From: Proteiniborus sp. MB09-C3
GTDB taxonomy: Bacteria > Bacillota > Clostridia > Tissierellales > Proteiniboraceae
Direction of reading: 5' to 3'
DNA: 64,000 bases
Assembly: GCF_030263895.1 (NCBI RefSeq)
Contig: NZ_CP127161.1
Location: 310,001 to 374,000 of the forward strand
Positions 23,003-47,404 of the stretch are shown one piece after another (the stretch's first letter is position 1; each line of letters opens with the position of its first letter). The notes beneath the pieces are model-generated. The model was given only the letters and a program-made list of their open reading frames with translations, made no database searches and was not told where the DNA came from. The position numbers and the translations under genes are program-made.

Positions 23003-23887
23003 TTAGAACAAGGACATTTGTTTATTTTCGTATTTTCTTTTTAATTCTTTTATTATGTCTGTCATTCTGTACAGAAGACCATATCTATCACACTCAGTTT
23101 TAAATACTATCCATAGCCTGTTTTTATATAGAGAATTGCATTCATATTGTCCTCCAAAGGTGCTTATATATTTTTGTTTTAATCCAGGAAACAATATATC
23201 TAATTGTTGATAAAAGTATAATCGTTGATTTTGACGTAATGTTACTCCCAAGTAAGGACTGACGAAGCTTGCACCATTTTCTGCCGCAGCTTTCACTATA
23301 AGCTTTATATTCTCATCAGTATCATTTATAAAGGGTAGTATTGGGCACATAAGTATGCCTGTAAATATACCTGCTTCAGATATTTCCTTTAATGCTTTAA
23401 ATCTCCGTGAGGTCACAGATACATTAGGCTCTATTTTTTTACATAGCTCATCATCGTATGTTGTTATGGTGAATTTTGCCATAGCAGGCGAATGCTCTTT
23501 GATTTTAGACAATATATCAATATCTCTAACCACTAAGTCGGACTTAGTAAGCACGCTTGCTCCAAATCCATATTTATTAATGAGCTCGAGTGCTCCTCTT
23601 GTCAGCTCATATTTCTCTTCAAAAGGATTATAGGAATCACTCATTGCCCCTGTGGCTACAATCCCCTTTTTCCGTTTTGACTTAAGATCATTTTCTAAAG
23701 TTAACAGTACATTTTTCTTTGCTCTTACTTTATCAAAGTTATCAACTCTATAGCACTCACTTCTAGAATCACAATAAATACATCCATGACAACAGCCCTT
23801 GTAGATATTCATTCCATAATTACATCCAAACCAGCTATCTCCATTAGACCAAGAAGATAATATTTTTTTAGCTTCTATAAATTCCAT
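23003..23887 (-). CDS. Radical SAM protein (SplB-like, Rv2578c family)
   Basis: A 294-residue protein with the cluster motif CCHGCIYCDSRSECY (CxxxCxxC ligands for a 4Fe-4S cluster and SAM) at about residues 32-46. It opens with SSWSNGDSWFGCNYGMNIYKG, as in the uncharacterised radical SAM family related to spore photoproduct lyase. VATGAMSDSYNPFE and TKSDLVVRDIDIL are further family blocks. The substrate is unknown. The ribosome binding site before the ATG at 23887 is weak. It is flanked by other single-gene units and by a WYL regulator gene upstream on the same strand. Confidence 0.85.
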   Translation of the reverse strand: MEFIEAKKILSSWSNGDSWFGCNYGMNIYKGCCHGCIYCDSRSECYRVDNFDKVRAKKNVLLTLENDLKSKRKKGIVATGAMSDSYNPFEEKYELTRGALELINKYGFGASVLTKSDLVVRDIDILSKIKEHSPAMAKFTITTYDDELCKKIEPNVSVTSRRFKALKEISEAGIFTGILMCPILPFINDTDENIKLIVKAAAENGASFVSPYLGVTLRQNQRLYFYQQLDILFPGLKQKYISTFGGQYECNSLYKNRLWIVFKTECDRYGLLYRMTDIIKELKRKYENKQMSLF

Positions 23888-23977
23888 AATTTAAACCCGT
23901 TTATCCTTTCTTATGTTAATAGACATTCTACCTTAATTATATCTAGGATATATGACAGCAGCTTGTCATATTAGAAT

Positions 23978-24889
23978 TTATTCTTCATAGGCTTCTATTG
24001 CATCTTTCATTCTAGTAGTAATAATATCTTTTATATACTGCGGCTCTAACACCTTCACATAATTCCCAAAGGAAAGTATATAGCCGTATACCCATTCATC
24101 CTCTGGAAAGGTTACAGTTACATCATAGGTATTGTCTTCATTTTTAACTATGGCTTCTTCATCAAAATCATCATAAATTCGATACAATGCCTTGGACTTG
24201 AACCTAAGCTTTAAAGTAACATTATTTGTAGCCATATCATTGTATTCTAAGCTCTGGATATTTTGATCTTTTCTTCTCAGAAATTCTTCATTATTTATAA
24301 CAAGATTTTTTATTCTAGAGATACGGAAAATTCTAAAATCAGATTTTAGTCTACAATAGCCATGCAGATACCATGCATGACCTTTATACAATAGCTTCAT
24401 TGGCTCTACTACTCTATTAGTTATATCTCCAAAAGCATTAATATAATCAAAGCTTACAATATATCTTCTAAGTATTGCCGTCTTTATTTTAGTAAACTTA
24501 TGATTTTCATTTGGATTACTTCCCCACTGACTAAAGTCCACATGTACCCAGTCTTCTGAATTATCGTCATTGAAAATGCCACTAACCTTTTCAAGAACAG
24601 AATCAGTCTCTGGATATTTCGTTACCTGTAAAGTCTTTAAGGCTAAAATTAAGCTTTCCTTTTCCTCCACCGATAGAATAGCTCTATTAATGGAATATTC
24701 CTGCAATAAGGATATTCCTCCACCATTCCCCTTGCTCATATATACTGGAACTCCTGCCATGGACAGAGTTTCTATATCTCTATATATGGTCCTCGTAGAG
24801 ACCTCCAGTCTTTCCGCAAGCTCTTTTGCTGTTATTATTTCCTTATTAAGCAGTATTACAGTAATCTCAATCAATCGACTTATCCTCAT
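23978..24889 (-). CDS. WYL-domain transcriptional regulator 1 (HTH_11 + WYL)
   Basis: A 303-residue regulator with an N-terminal winged helix (residues 1-65: RISRLIEITVILLNKEIITA, then ELAERLEVSTRTIYRDIETL), a WYL ligand domain in the middle (LYKGHAWYLHGYCRLKSDFR near 150) and a C-terminal WCX extension. WYL proteins of this DeoR/YafY type sense nucleotides or small molecules and control adjacent genes. The ATG at 24889 is chosen for GGGTG upstream and the family start. A 46-bp palindrome lies 19 nt upstream and resembles those beside the two other WYL genes of this window, suggesting autoregulation. Confidence 0.92.
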   Translation of the reverse strand: MRISRLIEITVILLNKEIITAKELAERLEVSTRTIYRDIETLSMAGVPVYMSKGNGGGISLLQEYSINRAILSVEEKESLILALKTLQVTKYPETDSVLEKVSGIFNDDNSEDWVHVDFSQWGSNPNENHKFTKIKTAILRRYIVSFDYINAFGDITNRVVEPMKLLYKGHAWYLHGYCRLKSDFRIFRISRIKNLVINNEEFLRRKDQNIQSLEYNDMATNNVTLKLRFKSKALYRIYDDFDEEAIVKNEDNTYDVTVTFPEDEWVYGYILSFGNYVKVLEPQYIKDIITTRMKDAIEAYEE

Positions 24890-24907
24890 AATATCACCCA
24901 TAATAAT

Positions 24908-24953
24908 TATAGCAGTTAAATAGGACAAATGTGTGTCATATTTAACTGCTATA
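24908..24953. promoter_or_regulatory. 46-bp palindrome at WYL regulator 1 (candidate operator)
   Basis: Perfect 15-bp arms TATAGCAGTTAAATA / TATTTAACTGCTATA (24908-24922, 24939-24953) and an inner GACA-AATGTG-TGTC dyad. No T run follows, so a DNA operator is more likely than a terminator. On the minus strand the core reads CA-CACATT-TG with TATAAT 14 nt further on. Confidence 0.7.
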
Positions 24954-25009
24954 AAAAAATTATAGAGCTGGTAAGCTCTGGGTTCATTAATTTAATCTGT
25001 TATATTAGT

Positions 25010-41465: not shown

Positions 41466-42395
41466 TTATTTAGTTCTAATGAAGTAGGAATCAAAAGGTA
41501 CTATGGTTTTGTTTTCTAATTCTGTAAACCCCTGATTTTTCAAAGCAGCAATTCTTTGCTTTGCCTCAGGAATGGCTTTCGTTATAATATGTTCAACTTC
41601 AAAGTCATCATAAAAATCATCAGATATTGTATCTATTATTTCCATAATAAATCCCTCTTTTTCGTACTTTGAAGCAAGATCAAGCCTTAACACACCTATC
41701 TTGGAAAATTCACTGGTAGTTACCTGTTTTGCAAAGAATTCAATAGTACCAATTGCTTTGCAATTTAGTTTATCTACAATACTAAAGCGAATATAGTATT
41801 GCTTACTATAATGGTCAAGCCAAAATTTAATGCAGTTTTTCATTTCATCCAAGGATTTGTAATTAAACTTACTAGTACAATTATCACTATTAAACAATCT
41901 AATAGACATAGGATCTGAATAGCATTCAAGTAAATCTTCCGCATCTTTTTCATCAACCATTCTAAAAATAAACTGTTTAGTCTCATAGACCGGGCATTTT
42001 TGATATGGATTTTCTTTTTTTCTTAGTAAATGCAATATTTGCTCTTCACTATCTAAAATATCATAATCTCCCTGTGTACCATCTGCTTTATGATATTGGA
42101 TACCTTGCTCATAATTTCTCTTTAAATACGTAGCTAAGCTATGCAGTCCTTCATCTTTAGCACATTGAAGAAATACCCTGTTTCGTTTATTTTTGAAGAT
42201 CCTCTTTTCGCAAGGAAACTCACTACATTCCCAGCACCCATTTATACTTCTAGTTTTTGCACATTCCTTAATTGAGCATCCATCACATTTTTCTCTACAT
42301 CCCTTACATTGACCTGTTTTACCAGCACTACAAAGTTTACACACAAGCCCACAATAAGCAATGCTATCTTTTATTTCTTCTATCGAATATGTCAT
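41466..42395 (-). CDS. DUF3795-like cysteine-rich domain fused to GNAT acetyltransferase
   Basis: A 309-residue two-domain protein. Residues 1-60 are Cys-rich (AYCGLVCKLCSAGKTGQCKG, then GCWECSEFPCEKR), matching DUF3795-type zinc or iron-sulfur binding proteins. From about 135 a GNAT domain follows (FIFRMVDEKDAEDLLECYSD, then IGVLRLDLASKYEKEGFI). The ATG at 42395 is chosen for AAAGGGGG upstream. A palindrome overlapping its promoter lies directly behind the WYL fragment gene, so it was probably the target of that regulator. Substrate unknown. Confidence 0.75.
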   Translation of the reverse strand: MTYSIEEIKDSIAYCGLVCKLCSAGKTGQCKGCREKCDGCSIKECAKTRSINGCWECSEFPCEKRIFKNKRNRVFLQCAKDEGLHSLATYLKRNYEQGIQYHKADGTQGDYDILDSEEQILHLLRKKENPYQKCPVYETKQFIFRMVDEKDAEDLLECYSDPMSIRLFNSDNCTSKFNYKSLDEMKNCIKFWLDHYSKQYYIRFSIVDKLNCKAIGTIEFFAKQVTTSEFSKIGVLRLDLASKYEKEGFIMEIIDTISDDFYDDFEVEHIITKAIPEAKQRIAALKNQGFTELENKTIVPFDSYFIRTK

Positions 42396-42428: not shown

Positions 42429-42467
42429 ATTATATAAGGAGATATGCGACAACTATATGGCGTATAT
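42429..42467 (-). promoter_or_regulatory. Promoter with overlapping WYL-type palindrome (DUF3795-GNAT gene)
   Basis: Minus strand: dyad ATATACGCCA-TATAGT-TGTCGCATAT (8 of 10 arm positions pair), then TATAAT (42429-42434) 15 nt after the core TG. It lies between the WYL fragment gene and the next gene; compare 46459-46499. Confidence 0.6.
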
Positions 42468-42862
42468 TAATCATAAATATCAACAATTTCTTTTGCCTTT
42501 AACATAAACTCTGTTTTTAATTCTTCTGGCTCAATTATTCTAATTTTATTGCCATATGTAAAAAGCAAACCTTTCCAAACAATTTCATTCATCAGCGCAT
42601 GAAATTGTAATATGAAATCGCCATCTTCATATGCAATTATTTTGGCATTAGGAAAATACTCCTCAATGGAAGCATGTACTTCTTTCTTACACAACATCTT
42701 TACATGTATATATTTTTGATTATCTTGTTTCTCATGCTGAATTAATAAATTGTCGATACCTTCGTGCTTTATCGAAAAAGGCTTCTCTAGCTTTTTCAAA
42801 TTTCTCATTCTTACTACCTTAAAAAGCCTATAGTCCTTCTTGTCACGACAATATCCAAGCAT
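42467..42862 (-). pseudogene. WYL-domain regulator 3, N-terminally truncated
   Basis: The 131 codons correspond to the second half of the WYL domain and the WCX tail (LGYCRDKKDYRLFKVVRMRN and LFTYGNKIRIIEPEELK). The helix-turn-helix and the first half, about 170 residues in the two intact paralogues here, are missing and not found upstream in any frame. There is no good ribosome binding site before the ATG at 42862, and a stop lies 2 codons upstream in frame. The downstream palindrome that such a regulator would bind is still present. Confidence 0.75.
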
Positions 42863-43402
42863 ATGTCAACGGCTACCTCAGTATTAACATTTATATTGTT
42901 AGCTATAGATAAAACATCACAAAATAGTAATCCCAAAGCTAATATTTCAATGATACAACGTAGACTTGGACATATATCAGTATAGTAGACATTTTTTAAA
43001 ATGATTTTTTCACTGGTATTCTAGTATTTCTCCACATTTACTACATAATCGTCATATCTAAACATAATTACTGCCTAATATAATATTTATTATTAAGTAT
43101 ATATTACCAATTCCTACATTTCAATTTTTATTTATTTTTGTAGTAGTGCTAATAACTACATTAACTTACTTTCAAATTCTCTTTGTATCCGTGTTCTACG
43201 TTCCGTAAGATAATAAATATTTAATCTATCTAACAATATATTATTGCTTCAGACTTTTCAAATTAGCAAAATAGGATAAGAAAGTAATTCTCTTAAATGG
43301 TATTATAATTTAAAAGATATCATCTAAAAGAAAGGATTTCAATTATATATTTAAATCAAAATAAAGTATTTGATTATAATAATTATTTGGAGGTAAAACA
43401 AT
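42863..43402. other. Intergenic region with possible gene relic
   Basis: No intact gene. A minus-strand open stretch (about 42865-42990, ending ALGLLFCDVLSIANNINVN) resembles the C-terminal helices of MazG-type pyrophosphohydrolases but has no start or upstream domain; probably a relic. The rest shows nothing recognisable. Confidence 0.3.
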
Positions 43403-44158
43403 ATGTTTAGTTTTTATAGTAAGCTTTCTACAGAAGTATACAATATAGACAAGCCTATCGGACATTCCTTTGGAGATGTGGAATTTTACAAGGAAAGACT
43501 TGGTAATATTAAAGGAAGAATTCTTGAGCCAGCAGTAGGGACAGGTCGTATCTTAATTCCTCTACTAGAGGAGGGCTTTATTGTAGATGGTATAGATTCC
43601 TCTCCTGAGATGCTAGATTTATGTAAATCTCATTGTGAACAAAGAGGTCTTAAGGCTGAGCTTTATCAAGAAAACATGCAAGCTTTTTCCCTACCACATA
43701 GGTATGAGGCAATTATTATTCCTACAGGCTCTTTTCTATTACTTGAAAATTCAAGAGATGCTATTAATGGATTAAAATGTTTCTATGAGCATCTTTCCAT
43801 AGGTGGCCGTCTTATTGTAGATATATTTATGCAATCAAATTTCAATACTGGACCTATTTCAACAAGAACTTGGAGCACTCCTCATGGAGATTTAATCACA
43901 TTAAACGAGTCTCTTGTAGAAGTCAATTTTATTGATCAATATACGGTTTCTCATTTGCGATATGAAAAATGGCGTAACAATCAGCTAATACAAACTGAGT
44001 TAGAGCGTTTTCCACTGAAATGGTACGGAATAGAGGAATTTAGATTGATTCTAGAGAAAGTTGGATTTGTTGATATTACTATTTCCTCTGATTATAAATT
44101 CGGCATACATCCTACGGATAAAGATCAAGTAATTACTTTTGAAGCATATCGTAAATAA
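43403..44158 (+). CDS. Class I SAM-dependent methyltransferase
   Basis: A 251-residue methyltransferase with motif I RILEPAVGTGRILIPLLEEG (about 39-58), motif II VDGIDSSPEML and a motif IV region YEAIIIPTGSFLLLE. The family fold is clear; the substrate is not. TTTGGAGG lies 8-9 nt before the ATG and a strong terminator follows. It stands alone between unrelated genes on the other strand. Confidence 0.9.
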   Translation: MFSFYSKLSTEVYNIDKPIGHSFGDVEFYKERLGNIKGRILEPAVGTGRILIPLLEEGFIVDGIDSSPEMLDLCKSHCEQRGLKAELYQENMQAFSLPHRYEAIIIPTGSFLLLENSRDAINGLKCFYEHLSIGGRLIVDIFMQSNFNTGPISTRTWSTPHGDLITLNESLVEVNFIDQYTVSHLRYEKWRNNQLIQTELERFPLKWYGIEEFRLILEKVGFVDITISSDYKFGIHPTDKDQVITFEAYRK

Positions 44159-44237
44159 AGTAATATTTTATCTTCTATCAAGCCTATTTATTTAAAAAGC
44201 TGTATTTTAAGATAGTGGTGATAATATAGCAATATTT

Positions 44238-44261
44238 AAGGGAAGTTAAAAAACTTCCCTT
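44238..44261 (+). terminator. Intrinsic terminator after the methyltransferase
   Basis: AAGGGAAGTT-AAAA-AACTTCCCTT, perfect 10-bp stem. Confidence 0.8.
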
Positions 44262-44404
44262 ATTGCATGTTTTATTAGTAGCCATCTTATCAAGTCTTTA
44301 TTTTATTTAGATACCGTAAATTTCTTATAATAATTCAACTGCTGTTTTATGAGCTTCCTATTTCATCATAATAAAAAAGTGCCTTAACATTGAATATATC
44401 ATAA

Positions 44405-44941
44405 TTAAATTTGTGTATTATCAAATGTAAATATTAGTTTATAACCATCAAATGTTTGTCCATTCTTTTCTTCAAATTTACCTTTAGCATAATCATTAAT
44501 TGTTTTTCTCCAAAACTTTTCTGCTCTTAGGTTTGTCCCTGATGGTGCCACATATAATCCCCATTTGCCTAAAAACTTATCAAATATCTGCTTTGCTGCA
44601 ATAGATGCAATATCCTTTCCCCTATATGGTCTCAATAAAAAGAACTCGTAAACATAATAATCCATTCCTTTAGGTGCATATTCACCTGTTGACACTAAAT
44701 CAAACCCTGCAGGCTTTCCATCCACCATTATAATAAATGGGAATAGCAGGTTAGGCTTCTGAAACCAAATATTCTGAACATCATATTGTTCAGCTAATGT
44801 TTTTATAGACTCATCCTCATAAATTCCATATTCATTAGGTACGTTTCCATAGACCTCCGATAAGTCATGTAAGTACAAAGGATAAATATTTTTTATTATA
44901 TTTGCATTTTCTTCATTTGCTAAAACTACCCGGACTTCCAT
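44405..44941 (-). CDS. GNAT family N-acetyltransferase
   Basis: A 178-residue GNAT domain: FIIMVDGKPAGFDLV for the central strand and YEFFLLRPYRGKDIASIAAK with the acetyl-CoA loop (RPYRGKDIA). It acetylates an unknown small molecule or protein. The ATG at 44941 follows AGGGGATG with 6 nt spacing; the ATG at 44950 overlaps that site. Transcribed alone, about 70 nt downstream of the flavin reductase gene. Confidence 0.85.
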   Translation of the reverse strand: MEVRVVLANEENANIIKNIYPLYLHDLSEVYGNVPNEYGIYEDESIKTLAEQYDVQNIWFQKPNLLFPFIIMVDGKPAGFDLVSTGEYAPKGMDYYVYEFFLLRPYRGKDIASIAAKQIFDKFLGKWGLYVAPSGTNLRAEKFWRKTINDYAKGKFEEKNGQTFDGYKLIFTFDNTQI

Positions 44942-45013
44942 AAATCTCATCCCCTATTTTATAATATAGTTGTTAAATAAATAGCATGATTTAGCATAGG
45001 CAGTACATTATTA

Positions 45014-45658
45014 TCACTTGTATTCCACAAAGCCAAGTTTATCATCTAATGATTCTCCCGTTAAAGGATTTTTAGGTGAGTGAATATTCATGACAAATCC
45101 ACTTTCACCAAAGCGCCCTTTTTTGTTTTCGTCGAAATATTCATCATCCATAGCTATGTGCTTAATACGGCCACATACTATGCAACACTTACTACCTTCA
45201 TAAAGAGGCTTAATCCATTCCAAAGTGCACTCTAGATTTAAAAAGCATTCCTTAATTCTAGGTGCATTGATTGAAACTGCTTCTTCAGCTGTTAATCCAC
45301 TTTCTACTATCTCATCAACCTCATATTTATTATTTTCAATTGTGCTATAACATTTTTCCCAGATTTCTTTACTTGGAAAGTTAATGCAAAACTCTTTATT
45401 TTTAGTTATATCTTTAATCGTATGTCCATATTCTATAGGAACACCACCCATTATACAAAAATGACCTCCCTCTTCTCCTGAAAAAGAAGACCATGAATGT
45501 AAGCATGCATTAGGTAAACCATTTTCTTTGTAAGTAGTAATCAAGAATATAGGCATAGGTATACCTACAAGATACTCTGCCCAGTTAAAAACCTCATACT
45601 GTCCCTCCCAAGTAGTAGCAAATGCTTCTGGCTTTTTGTTCTCAAACTCATGTTTCAT
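45014..45658 (-). CDS. Flavin reductase-like FMN-binding protein
   Basis: A 214-residue protein of the flavin reductase/FMN-binding split-barrel family. Recognisable are VGIPMPIFLITTYKENGLPN near the N-terminus and FCINFPSKEIWEK in the FMN-binding barrel. Such proteins bind FMN and reduce it or act as small oxidoreductases. GAGGGGG lies 8-9 nt before the ATG at 45658. The gene begins just inside the 25-nt gap after the WYL-controlled gene of unknown function, so both may be one transcript. Confidence 0.82.
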   Translation of the reverse strand: MKHEFENKKPEAFATTWEGQYEVFNWAEYLVGIPMPIFLITTYKENGLPNACLHSWSSFSGEEGGHFCIMGGVPIEYGHTIKDITKNKEFCINFPSKEIWEKCYSTIENNKYEVDEIVESGLTAEEAVSINAPRIKECFLNLECTLEWIKPLYEGSKCCIVCGRIKHIAMDDEYFDENKKGRFGESGFVMNIHSPKNPLTGESLDDKLGFVEYK

Positions 45659-45683
45659 TATATTTTCCCCCTCTCTTAATAGA

Positions 45684-46373
45684 CTAAAATCCAATAAATG
45701 ATCTTATTTTCTTTGCCCCAGCACGTGGAGTAATATCTTTAATTCTCGCAATTATTTCTTCTATTGCATCCTCTGGTTTTATACCAATAGACTCCTCTAT
45801 TAGCTCATTTCCTGCCCATGCTTCTACAGTGGAATATACAGTAGAGGACCAACCATAAGCCTCTCCTTTAGAGTTCATTTTTCGTTTCGTCCCATTTACT
45901 GTTAAAAACATCCACATCTGTAACTCAGACATGGCAGATTCATATTTCGAGTCTAGCTCCTTTGTAAAACCACCTAATGATCTAATTTCATGTGTAGCCA
46001 AGCTTTCATGTTCCTCAAACAGGCTATATATTTGCTTAGCATGATTACTTAGCAAACCATCTGAATACAGCTCTAAAAAGCTTCTTCCTTTTCTTCTAGC
46101 TGCGAGAAACTTAGGATACCATTCTAGAGAGATAAATCCTGGTTTCTTACCAAATAGCTTTGCATATGCTGCTTTATGATCTCTTTCAATATTGATTCGC
46201 CACTGCCAGGGATCTGATGGTAAATCAGTATGCCACTGCTCTGGCCTTGTTAAATCTGAAAGGTTTATAAAGTCAATGCAATTATTTGACAAGGGCATAA
46301 ATCCTAAATCTTCGACTATTGAAACAAAATCACTATATTCAGTAATTTTTGTGTCCGTGTAATTATTAGACAT
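45684..46373 (-). CDS. Conserved protein of unknown function (possibly AlkZ-related)
   Basis: A 229-residue soluble protein (SDLTRPEQWHTDLPSDPWQW, then FISLEWYPKFLAARRKGRS and YGWSSTVYSTVEAW). I recognise it as a conserved clostridial/bacillar protein; a relation to winged-helix AlkZ-like proteins is possible but weak. AAAGGAG is 10 nt before the ATG at 46373. It is encoded directly behind WYL regulator 2, with a palindrome over its promoter, so it is the likely regulatory target together with the flavin reductase. Confidence 0.6.
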   Translation of the reverse strand: MSNNYTDTKITEYSDFVSIVEDLGFMPLSNNCIDFINLSDLTRPEQWHTDLPSDPWQWRINIERDHKAAYAKLFGKKPGFISLEWYPKFLAARRKGRSFLELYSDGLLSNHAKQIYSLFEEHESLATHEIRSLGGFTKELDSKYESAMSELQMWMFLTVNGTKRKMNSKGEAYGWSSTVYSTVEAWAGNELIEESIGIKPEDAIEEIIARIKDITPRAGAKKIRSFIGF

Positions 46374-46458
46374 GATACTTATCTCCTTTCCTTCATTCCG
46401 AAAAATTATTAGAAAAACAATTTTCAATATGAACTAATAATTGTGCTTTATTGGCATC

Positions 46459-46499
46459 AGCATAACATAATGAACATGTCAACTGTGTGTCATGTTCAT
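46459..46499 (-). promoter_or_regulatory. Promoter with overlapping WYL-type palindrome (target of WYL regulator 2)
   Basis: Dyad ATGAACATG...CATGTTCAT (46470-46499) with core, on the minus strand, CA-CACAGT-TG, then TATGCT (46459-46464) 15 nt after the core TG. The dyad includes TTGACA. It starts inside the stop codon region of the WYL gene. Confidence 0.65.
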
Positions 46500-47404
46500 T
46501 TATACATATCTAAAATATTTTTTGCATTAGCCTTTAATTCGTCAACTATGGATTTCGGTGATAACACATATGCTTTATCGCCAAAGCTTCGAATAAAATC
46601 CATTGCATATTGATGGTTGTTATAGAATAAAGAAAATTTAATCTGATTATCTTCCGTGATTTCATAAGAATAGACACCATAATGATCAACAATTTGATAT
46701 TCAAGAGAACGGTCAATAAGCATTGTTATTACTTTTTTATCATCTTGAAAATAATTATCCAAGTTAAGACTTTCTGTCGGAATATTTCTAGGAATAAAAT
46801 TCATATCAGTAATTTTAAGATTGTTCATTCTATTCAGTTTAAAAAGCCTAAAGTCCTCTCTTAATTCACAGTATCCAAAGACGTACCATGCAGACCACTT
46901 AAAGGTAATAAAGCAAGGTTCTATATGCCTACTGGAAGTTCCTTTTGTAGAAAAATAATCAAAAACAACCTCACGGCTATTATTTATTGCTTCTCTTAAA
47001 AGATTTATTTTCTGAGAAAGACTTGTTTTGTAAAAAGAAGTTAAATCGATAAAAATATTATTGCTAATGGAAATAACGTCTTCATGCTTTAGAGATAATT
47101 TATCTAGTAAAAGATTAATCTTTGAATCATTTGATATGCTTTCAATGCTTTTTAAGCCGATTATTATATTGCCTAGCTCATCACTGGTTAATATGTTCTT
47201 ATCCAGCTTATAACCCTCAGCAATACTGATTCCTCCACCGCCGCCTTGATATGTGATTATTGGTATACCTGCATTACATATGCTTTCAATATCCCTATGA
47301 ATGGTACGAATGGATACCTCAAATTTTTCGGCTAAAATCTTTGCTGTTGTTCTTTCGTTATTTAAGAGTACTGTTATTATTCCAAGAAGTCTGTCTATTT
47401 TCAT
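46496..47404 (-). CDS. WYL-domain transcriptional regulator 2 (HTH_11 + WYL)
   Basis: A 302-residue regulator with an N-terminal winged helix (KIDRLLGIITVLLNNERTTA, AEKFEVSIRTIHRDIESICN), the WYL domain (FKWSAWYVFGYCELREDFR) and a C-terminal WCX tail (FIRSFGDKAYVLSPKSIVDE). It is full length and closely resembles WYL regulator 1. AAGGATG precedes the ATG at 47404. Its stop touches a palindrome that overlaps the promoter of the next gene on the same strand, so it probably controls 45014-46373. Confidence 0.92.
   Translation of the reverse strand: MKIDRLLGIITVLLNNERTTAKILAEKFEVSIRTIHRDIESICNAGIPIITYQGGGGGISIAEGYKLDKNILTSDELGNIIIGLKSIESISNDSKINLLLDKLSLKHEDVISISNNIFIDLTSFYKTSLSQKINLLREAINNSREVVFDYFSTKGTSSRHIEPCFITFKWSAWYVFGYCELREDFRLFKLNRMNNLKITDMNFIPRNIPTESLNLDNYFQDDKKVITMLIDRSLEYQIVDHYGVYSYEITEDNQIKFSLFYNNHQYAMDFIRSFGDKAYVLSPKSIVDELKANAKNILDMYK

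Follow-up and report, generated by a model that had tools for sequence, protein, structure and literature searches.

Palindromes at the promoters beside WYL genes of Proteiniborus sp. MB09-C3 as predicted operators of DriD-like regulators

WYL genes and four palindromes in the window

The subject of this study is a 64-kb stretch of the Proteiniborus sp. MB09-C3 genome (NZ_CP127161.1, positions 310,001 to 374,000; hereafter the window) and the palindromic sites found beside its genes for WYL regulators, named WYL1, WYL2 and WYL3. The window neighbours of these genes are an AlkZ-related, a radical-SAM, a thioesterase, a DUF3795-GNAT and a flavin reductase gene. The following features, all on the minus strand, were assigned in window coordinates.

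23003..23887, minus: radical-SAM protein, probable WYL1 target; weak match to PA0069/Rv2578c and spore-photoproduct-lyase-like models
23936..23973, minus: predicted operator-promoter of the radical-SAM gene; arm TAATA, core TGACAAGCTGCTGTCA (23968-23953), arm TATAT
23941-23936, minus: its -10, TATAAT, spacing 14, G at -31
23978..24889, minus: WYL1, helix-turn-helix (HTH)-WYL-WCX regulator; Pfam HTH_11, WYL, WCX; recognition helix VSTRTIYRD
24906..24943, minus: site ahead of WYL1; arm AAATA, core TGACACACATTTGTCC (24938-24923), arm TATTT
24911-24906, minus: its -10, TATAAT, spacing 14, without G at -31
41466..42395, minus: DUF3795 and GNAT acetyltransferase protein, probable former target
42429..42467, minus: predicted operator-promoter at the decayed locus; arm ATATA, core CGCCATATAGTTGTCG (42462-42447), arm CATAT
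42434-42429, minus: its -10, TATAAT, spacing 15; family core matched at 7/10
42467..42862, minus: WYL3 remnant; of the domains, WCX and the end of WYL remain, the HTH is gone, and the frames upstream are broken
45014..45694, minus: flavin-reductase-like gene, probably in the operon of the AlkZ-related gene, whose end it overlaps
45684..46373, minus: AlkZ-related protein (PF24741), probable WYL2 target
46459..46497, minus: predicted operator-promoter of the AlkZ-related gene; arm GAACA, core TGACACACAGTTGACA (46492-46477), arm TGTTC
46464-46459, minus: its -10, TATGCT, spacing 15, G at -31
46496..47404, minus: WYL2, HTH-WYL-WCX regulator; Pfam HTH_11, WYL, WCX and alignment; recognition helix VSIRTIHRD; start set at the conserved MKID, with the open reading frame open to 47416

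A preliminary description of the window had reported three palindromes with a core CA-N6-TG, each followed by a -10 hexamer at 14 or 15 nucleotides. Re-reading of the sequence and a window scan found all three as claimed, on the minus strand. They read GAACATGACA-cacagt-TGACATGTTC, 15 nucleotides and TATGCT at 46.4 kb, ATATACGCCA-tatagt-TGTCGCATAT, 15 nucleotides and TATAAT at 42.4 kb, and AAATATGACA-cacatt-TGTCCTATTT, 14 nucleotides and TATAAT at 24.9 kb. A fourth site had been overlooked: TAATATGACA-agctgc-TGTCATATAT with TATAAT at 14 (core 23968-23953) starts right behind the stop codon of WYL1 and separates this intact gene from the radical-SAM gene. WYL1 thus owns two sites, one ahead of itself and one ahead of the next gene. 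The order half-site, six bases, half-site, -10 is common to the four sites, and the layout of the AlkZ-related operator-promoter is repeated in a 73%-identical orthologue (L012). When both strands of the whole window were scanned for CA-N6-TG with at least 8 of 10 arm pairs and TANNNT (at least 4/6) at 14 or 15, exactly four matches were returned, all adjoining WYL genes. The chance expectation was a mean of 0.18 matches, and four were never reached in 100 first-order random sequences.

Two minor features were seen around the WYL1 promoter. At 24890-24960, as at the distant site L181 described below, the palindrome is far longer, about 45 bases, and the outer arm includes the -10 (ATAGCAGTTAAATA...TATTTAACTGCTATAAT and TATAGCACTTAAATA...AATTTAAGTGCTATACT). 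Just ahead of the promoter, a terminator-like hairpin (AGAGCT...AGCTCT with a T-run, 24964-24979, minus strand) marks the end of the thioesterase gene.

The motif and its register in related genomes

Is this arrangement common beside related WYL genes? The search for WYL2-like proteins covered 391 genomes of the class and that for WYL1-like proteins 398 genomes of the phylum, and the flanks of their genes were read; a site was defined as at least 9/10 matches to TGACA-N6-TGTCA. Sites flank 71 of the 92 WYL genes of the first set and 119 of the 166 related WYL genes of the full set, so that homologous loci do carry the dyads, the check proposed in the preliminary description. Coding stretches of equal length from these WYL genes had none (0/92), and shuffled flanks had a site in about 1%. 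The core CA-N6-TG was present at all three noted sites, but it is too short; the real core is TGACA-N6-TGTCA. The full motif is AA[CT]A-TGACA-YAYWGN-TGTCA-[TG][GA]TT, followed by TANNNT 15 (or 14) nucleotides past the second TG. It usually lies at the WYL stop codon or up to about 15 bases past it, and otherwise about 50 bases ahead of the WYL start. The family rule suggested earlier, namely a common core, a fixed distance to the -10 and a position over the -35 region, was seen in more than 100 relatives.

A search of the 398 genomes by the DNA pattern alone gave 28 matches, versus none with the reversed pattern, and of the 27 that fall in other genomes than the window's, 13 lie no more than 1.5 kb from a WYL gene. 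Twelve WYL loci on named plasmids, 10 of them from Bacilli, had been kept apart while the rule was built. In eight of the 12, a site matches at 8/10 or more and has its -10 at 15, two of these on divergent promoters. A literature search for the motif in Clostridia, or for yobU/yobV, returned nothing relevant; it covered open-access papers only, and thus the missing earlier description is no proof of novelty.

A logo was built from 83 sites with the -10 at 15. It contains the motif, loose bases, TGn in about half of the sites and TANNNT. The -10 matches TATAAT at 5.2 of 6 positions. At a 17-base spacing the -35 hexamer would coincide exactly with the N6 spacer, which resembles TTGACA no better than random sequence does (1.3/6 at downstream targets), and promoter matching of the sites found no usable -35 at spacing 16-18. 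With both strands read, a -10 at 14 or 15 stands in at least one direction of 125 of the 132 sites. The spacer itself is not palindromic, having G at -31 in 78/83 sites and the mirror C in 3/83. It is polar, with A at -34 and G at -31 oriented toward the -10, and its polarity goes with the direction of the promoter in 95 of the 97 clear cases, divergent promoters included (Fisher p 3.6e-16); the reverse-polarity cases are divergent promoters of nearly all one clade, which makes the independent events fewer than the counts. The palindromic pattern by which the sites were picked could not have introduced this polarity. A dimer by itself needs no spacer polarity; polarity would be expected if RNA polymerase helps to read the site.

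A second geometry, with arms ATTGT and the site between the TTGACA and TATAAT of the WYL gene, was rejected, as it proved to be the usual site facing a divergent promoter. The WYL clade with ATTGT arms (L058, L062, L143, L245, L249 and relatives) has this reversed site serving the divergent promoter. On plasmids of Enterococcus faecalis and Listeria innocua, the divergent gene belongs to the type 1 glutamine amidotransferase family, and the site overlaps with the TTGACA that belongs to the WYL gene.

The difference between 14 and 15 proved to be a rule in itself. Sites ahead of targets downstream of a WYL gene have spacing 15 in 72/80 and G at -31 in 78/80, versus spacing 14 in 9/10 and G at -31 in 6/10 for sites ahead of the WYL gene in two-site loci, where the -10 is mostly a perfect TATAAT (Fisher p 3e-7 for 14 against 15). 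When the two sites of one locus were compared, the target site had the longer spacing in seven, an equal one in three and a shorter one in none. The window sites at 46.4, 42.4 and 24.9 kb (15, 15 and 14) obey this register rule, and the radical-SAM site (14) is the exception. This fits the earlier suspicion that the 24.9-kb site acts differently. The short leader there had been raised as a caveat against a promoter. In relatives, the -10 lies about 50 nucleotides past the start of the site, directly ahead of a GGTGAT-like ribosome site, and because this placement recurs, the short leader is no argument against the promoter. A promoter scan at 24.9 kb also gave an alternative pair, TTGTCC-17-TATTAT, which a bound dimer would cover. 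The sites ahead of the WYL gene itself, with spacing 14 and a laxer spacer, are probably autoregulatory, and I infer that binding there has a different outcome from binding at target sites.

Activation, repression and the closest known systems

The predicted structure of WYL2 comprises an HTH, helices, WYL and WCX; its mean predicted local distance difference test (pLDDT) of 85 and predicted template modelling score (pTM) of 0.52 make the domains good and the placement of the domains not. The nearest folds in the PDB are PafBC and DriD, both activators. In the WYL groove, the residues aligned to R181, Y196, R208 and R214 of PafB, whose roles are described in PMC11804915, are invariant or nearly so, and R211 is mostly K. 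No partner gene was seen for the WYL regulators, and the two-fold operator suggests a dimer.

DriD of Caulobacter crescentus, a homodimeric WYL activator, is close in several respects (PMC12340889). It shares the HTH-3-helix-WYL-WCX chain, a GAC/GTC palindrome over the -35, the fixed -10 distance, the poor -35 and the G at -14 of the extended -10. Its two HTHs flank the -35, and sigma region 4 lies centrally between them. The DriD half-sites, ATACGAC/GTCGTAT, resemble the ATATGACA/TGTCATAT of the present sites but stand one base closer together (GAC-N7-GTC in DriD, GAC-N8-GTC here). Unlike the WYL genes studied here, proteobacterial DriD has no same-strand target behind it and controls several scattered damage genes, and spacer polarity is not reported in the text consulted. 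SiwR of Mycobacterium smegmatis has the same gene order: behind the WYL gene, the promoter of the next gene contains an imperfect palindrome of 19 bp that is required for activation, as is the -26 region (PMC10693628). It has dinB-family targets, found here behind Bacillus and Exiguobacterium WYL genes. SiwR is actinobacterial, however, with a conserved GGA at -26 instead of TGTCA, and was compared by layout, not base by base. The PafBC element (RecA-NDp promoter) has TTGTC 14 nucleotides ahead of TANNNT, which corresponds to the promoter-proximal half-site here, and the -35 is used abnormally (PMC5656591, PMC11804915). In contrast, PafBC is a heterodimer that binds with polymerase by sigma adaptation at a single half-site without a palindrome; the WYL genes here are single, their sites are two-fold, and neither two fused or adjacent PafB/PafC genes nor a single non-palindromic -26 element was found. 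BrxR and CapW are also WYL homodimers on promoter palindromes, but they repress phage-defence operons, none of which adjoins the window's WYL genes, and only their WYL part matches the family profile. The winged HTH, middle helices, WYL and WCX, with the palindrome over a poor -35 at a fixed -10 distance, are those of the DriD/SiwR type.

Judged by sequence and by analogy, it is likely that the window sites serve as operator-promoters for homodimeric activators of the HTH-WYL-WCX ('YafY family') type, with a mode of action like that of DriD and SiwR. Each HTH of the dimer would contact one TGAC/GTCA half-site. The half-sites would straddle the -35, and the six spacer bases would stand in for the -35 hexamer. 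As seen in the cryo-electron microscopy structure of DriD, sigma region 4 would lie with one HTH on each side, and the polar spacer might be read together with the polymerase. With a good, often extended -10 and no -35, the promoter would rely on the bound dimer to hold RNA polymerase. A site in place of the -35 probably keeps genes that counter DNA-damaging chemicals off unless the stress regulator assists the polymerase. The effector would likely be single-stranded DNA or another nucleic acid from DNA damage, held in the conserved basic groove. The targets would detoxify DNA-damaging chemicals or repair the damage, beside the regulator and, in the window's genome, elsewhere too.

Several points weigh against this. 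An extended -10 is present in about half of the promoters, and since such a -10 can act in the absence of any -35, repression is possible. The WYL homologues BrxR and CapW are repressors (PMC9122601, PMC9122588). The near-identical layout recurs at the sites ahead of WYL genes, where an activator needs it less. Moreover, the site counts overstate the independent events, the genomes and loci being phylogenetically related. The layout, the likeness to DriD and the nearest folds nevertheless favour activation over repression, and activation is the probable outcome at the predicted operators.

A one-base register may instead give the dimer a dual role, activating at 15-spaced target sites and repressing at 14-spaced autoregulatory sites. 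I would put this at somewhat below an even chance. The 15-against-14 split, the same-locus comparison and the frequencies of G at -31 argue for it, whereas the radical-SAM target site of the window has 14, as do 8/80 target sites, and the two-site loci are mostly from one clade. It is unlikely that the dimer is simply a repressor that keeps RNA polymerase away by occupying the -35 region until an inducer or single-stranded DNA releases it, as in BrxR/CapW. The known WYL repressors, the strong -10s (about half preceded by TGn), the sites ahead of WYL genes with their spacing of 14 and mostly perfect TATAAT and the TTGTCC-17-TATTAT pair would agree with it, but blocking needs neither a fixed distance nor a polar spacer that follows direction, there is no usable -35 at spacing 16-18, and the nearest characterised folds are activators. 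That the palindromes are WYL gene terminators or chance dyads is scarcely credible: they begin at or a few bases from the WYL stop codon, but nothing terminator-like lies at 46.35-46.6 kb or at the 23.9-kb site, the motif also stands upstream of WYL genes and ahead of genes far from any of them, and chance is excluded by the coding and shuffle controls, the reversed-pattern search and the random-sequence scan.

Should the site rule hold, the operator, the direction and the targets of many WYL regulators, a very numerous and mostly uncharacterised group, would be predictable from sequence in Clostridia and Bacilli. The register from TGTC to the -10 would join PafBC, DriD and SiwR promoters in one layout. 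Through the polar spacer at the -35, the cooperation of the WYL dimer with sigma becomes directly testable.

Distant sites, target genes and arm classes

The window's genome has further sites at 278,549 (L178, DUF6144), 649,140 (L180) and 3,152,006 (L181, DUF3788-DUF3795), and one-mismatch sites at 539,329 (L210) and 2,170,154 (L211). These five lie far from any WYL gene, ahead of DUF6144, DUF3788-DUF3795 and unknown genes, and four of them have the left arm ATA, as WYL1's own sites do. The other full-length WYL gene of the genome (3,328,097) encodes a different recognition helix and has no such site nearby.

Among the 92 target genes, 39 give a match to GyrI-like, 28 to Cass2 (overlapping with GyrI-like) and 13 to a zinc ribbon; among the other families are DinB, glyoxalase/bleomycin-resistance type, DUF3795, radical SAM (3/92, and also behind the distant site L193) and AlkZ-related. 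Several pattern matches without a nearby WYL gene precede kinds of genes also met behind WYL genes, namely GyrI-like, DUF3795/DUF3788, radical-SAM and YjbR genes and the gene of a HEAT-repeat protein with a borderline DNA-alkylation-repair match. GyrI-like hydrolases break down DNA-alkylating natural products (PMC5684135). The target families fit genotoxin defence and suggest damage-induced self-protection. In Enterococcus gilvus (L244), a flavin reductase gene lies directly behind the WYL gene.

The outer arms had been said to differ completely between loci. This is true outside TGACA but not inside it, where the sequence is common, and the arms are not private to each locus: a few classes (ACA, ATA, ACC, AGA) are common to whole clades. 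The class co-varies with residue 36 of the recognition helix, N/L/H going with ACA and Y with ATA; CA was found in 61/70 half-sites for N/L/H and in 11/150 for Y. A tree built without the HTH has about six changes of residue 36, and independent pairs agree 2.3 to 0.1, a comparison in which significance is unreachable. HTH columns are no more informative on arm class than the remaining protein. A code of arm against helix was demoted to a lead, as it mostly follows phylogeny; the specificity is suggestive but confounded with it. The best single case is L085, with L inside the Y clade and ACA arms at both of its sites.

Tentatively, and with the balance slightly against it, a lineage-wide promoter class of Clostridia and Bacilli may be drawn in which the polar 6-bp spacer of a WYL palindrome replaces the -35, the 15/14 register splits activated from autoregulated promoters, and arm classes recognised by the recognition helix insulate paralogues, WYL1 having ATA arms and several distant sites and WYL2 ACA arms. 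If true, this would be a code by which YafY-family regulators, hundreds of them still uncharacterised, could be read from sequence together with the detoxification regulons they control.

Two WYL loci of the same design had been described at 46.4 and 42.4 kb. This stands for 46.4 kb with the intact WYL2, but at 42.4 kb all that is left of the WYL gene is a decayed C-terminal fragment without HTH, so that this locus is the weakest and not equivalent to the others. DUF3795-GNAT homologues mostly lack a site, so the 42.4-kb site is unsupported by them, L233 excepted, where an acetyltransferase gene adjoins both a perfect site and a WYL gene. The 42.4-kb locus is best read as what is left of a WYL operator unit, or as one that a different WYL protein now serves. 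In the decayed region (42440-43100, minus strand), the palindrome and the full -10 still stand ahead of the next gene, with the pairing arms, the spacer polarity and the spacing of 15 retained.

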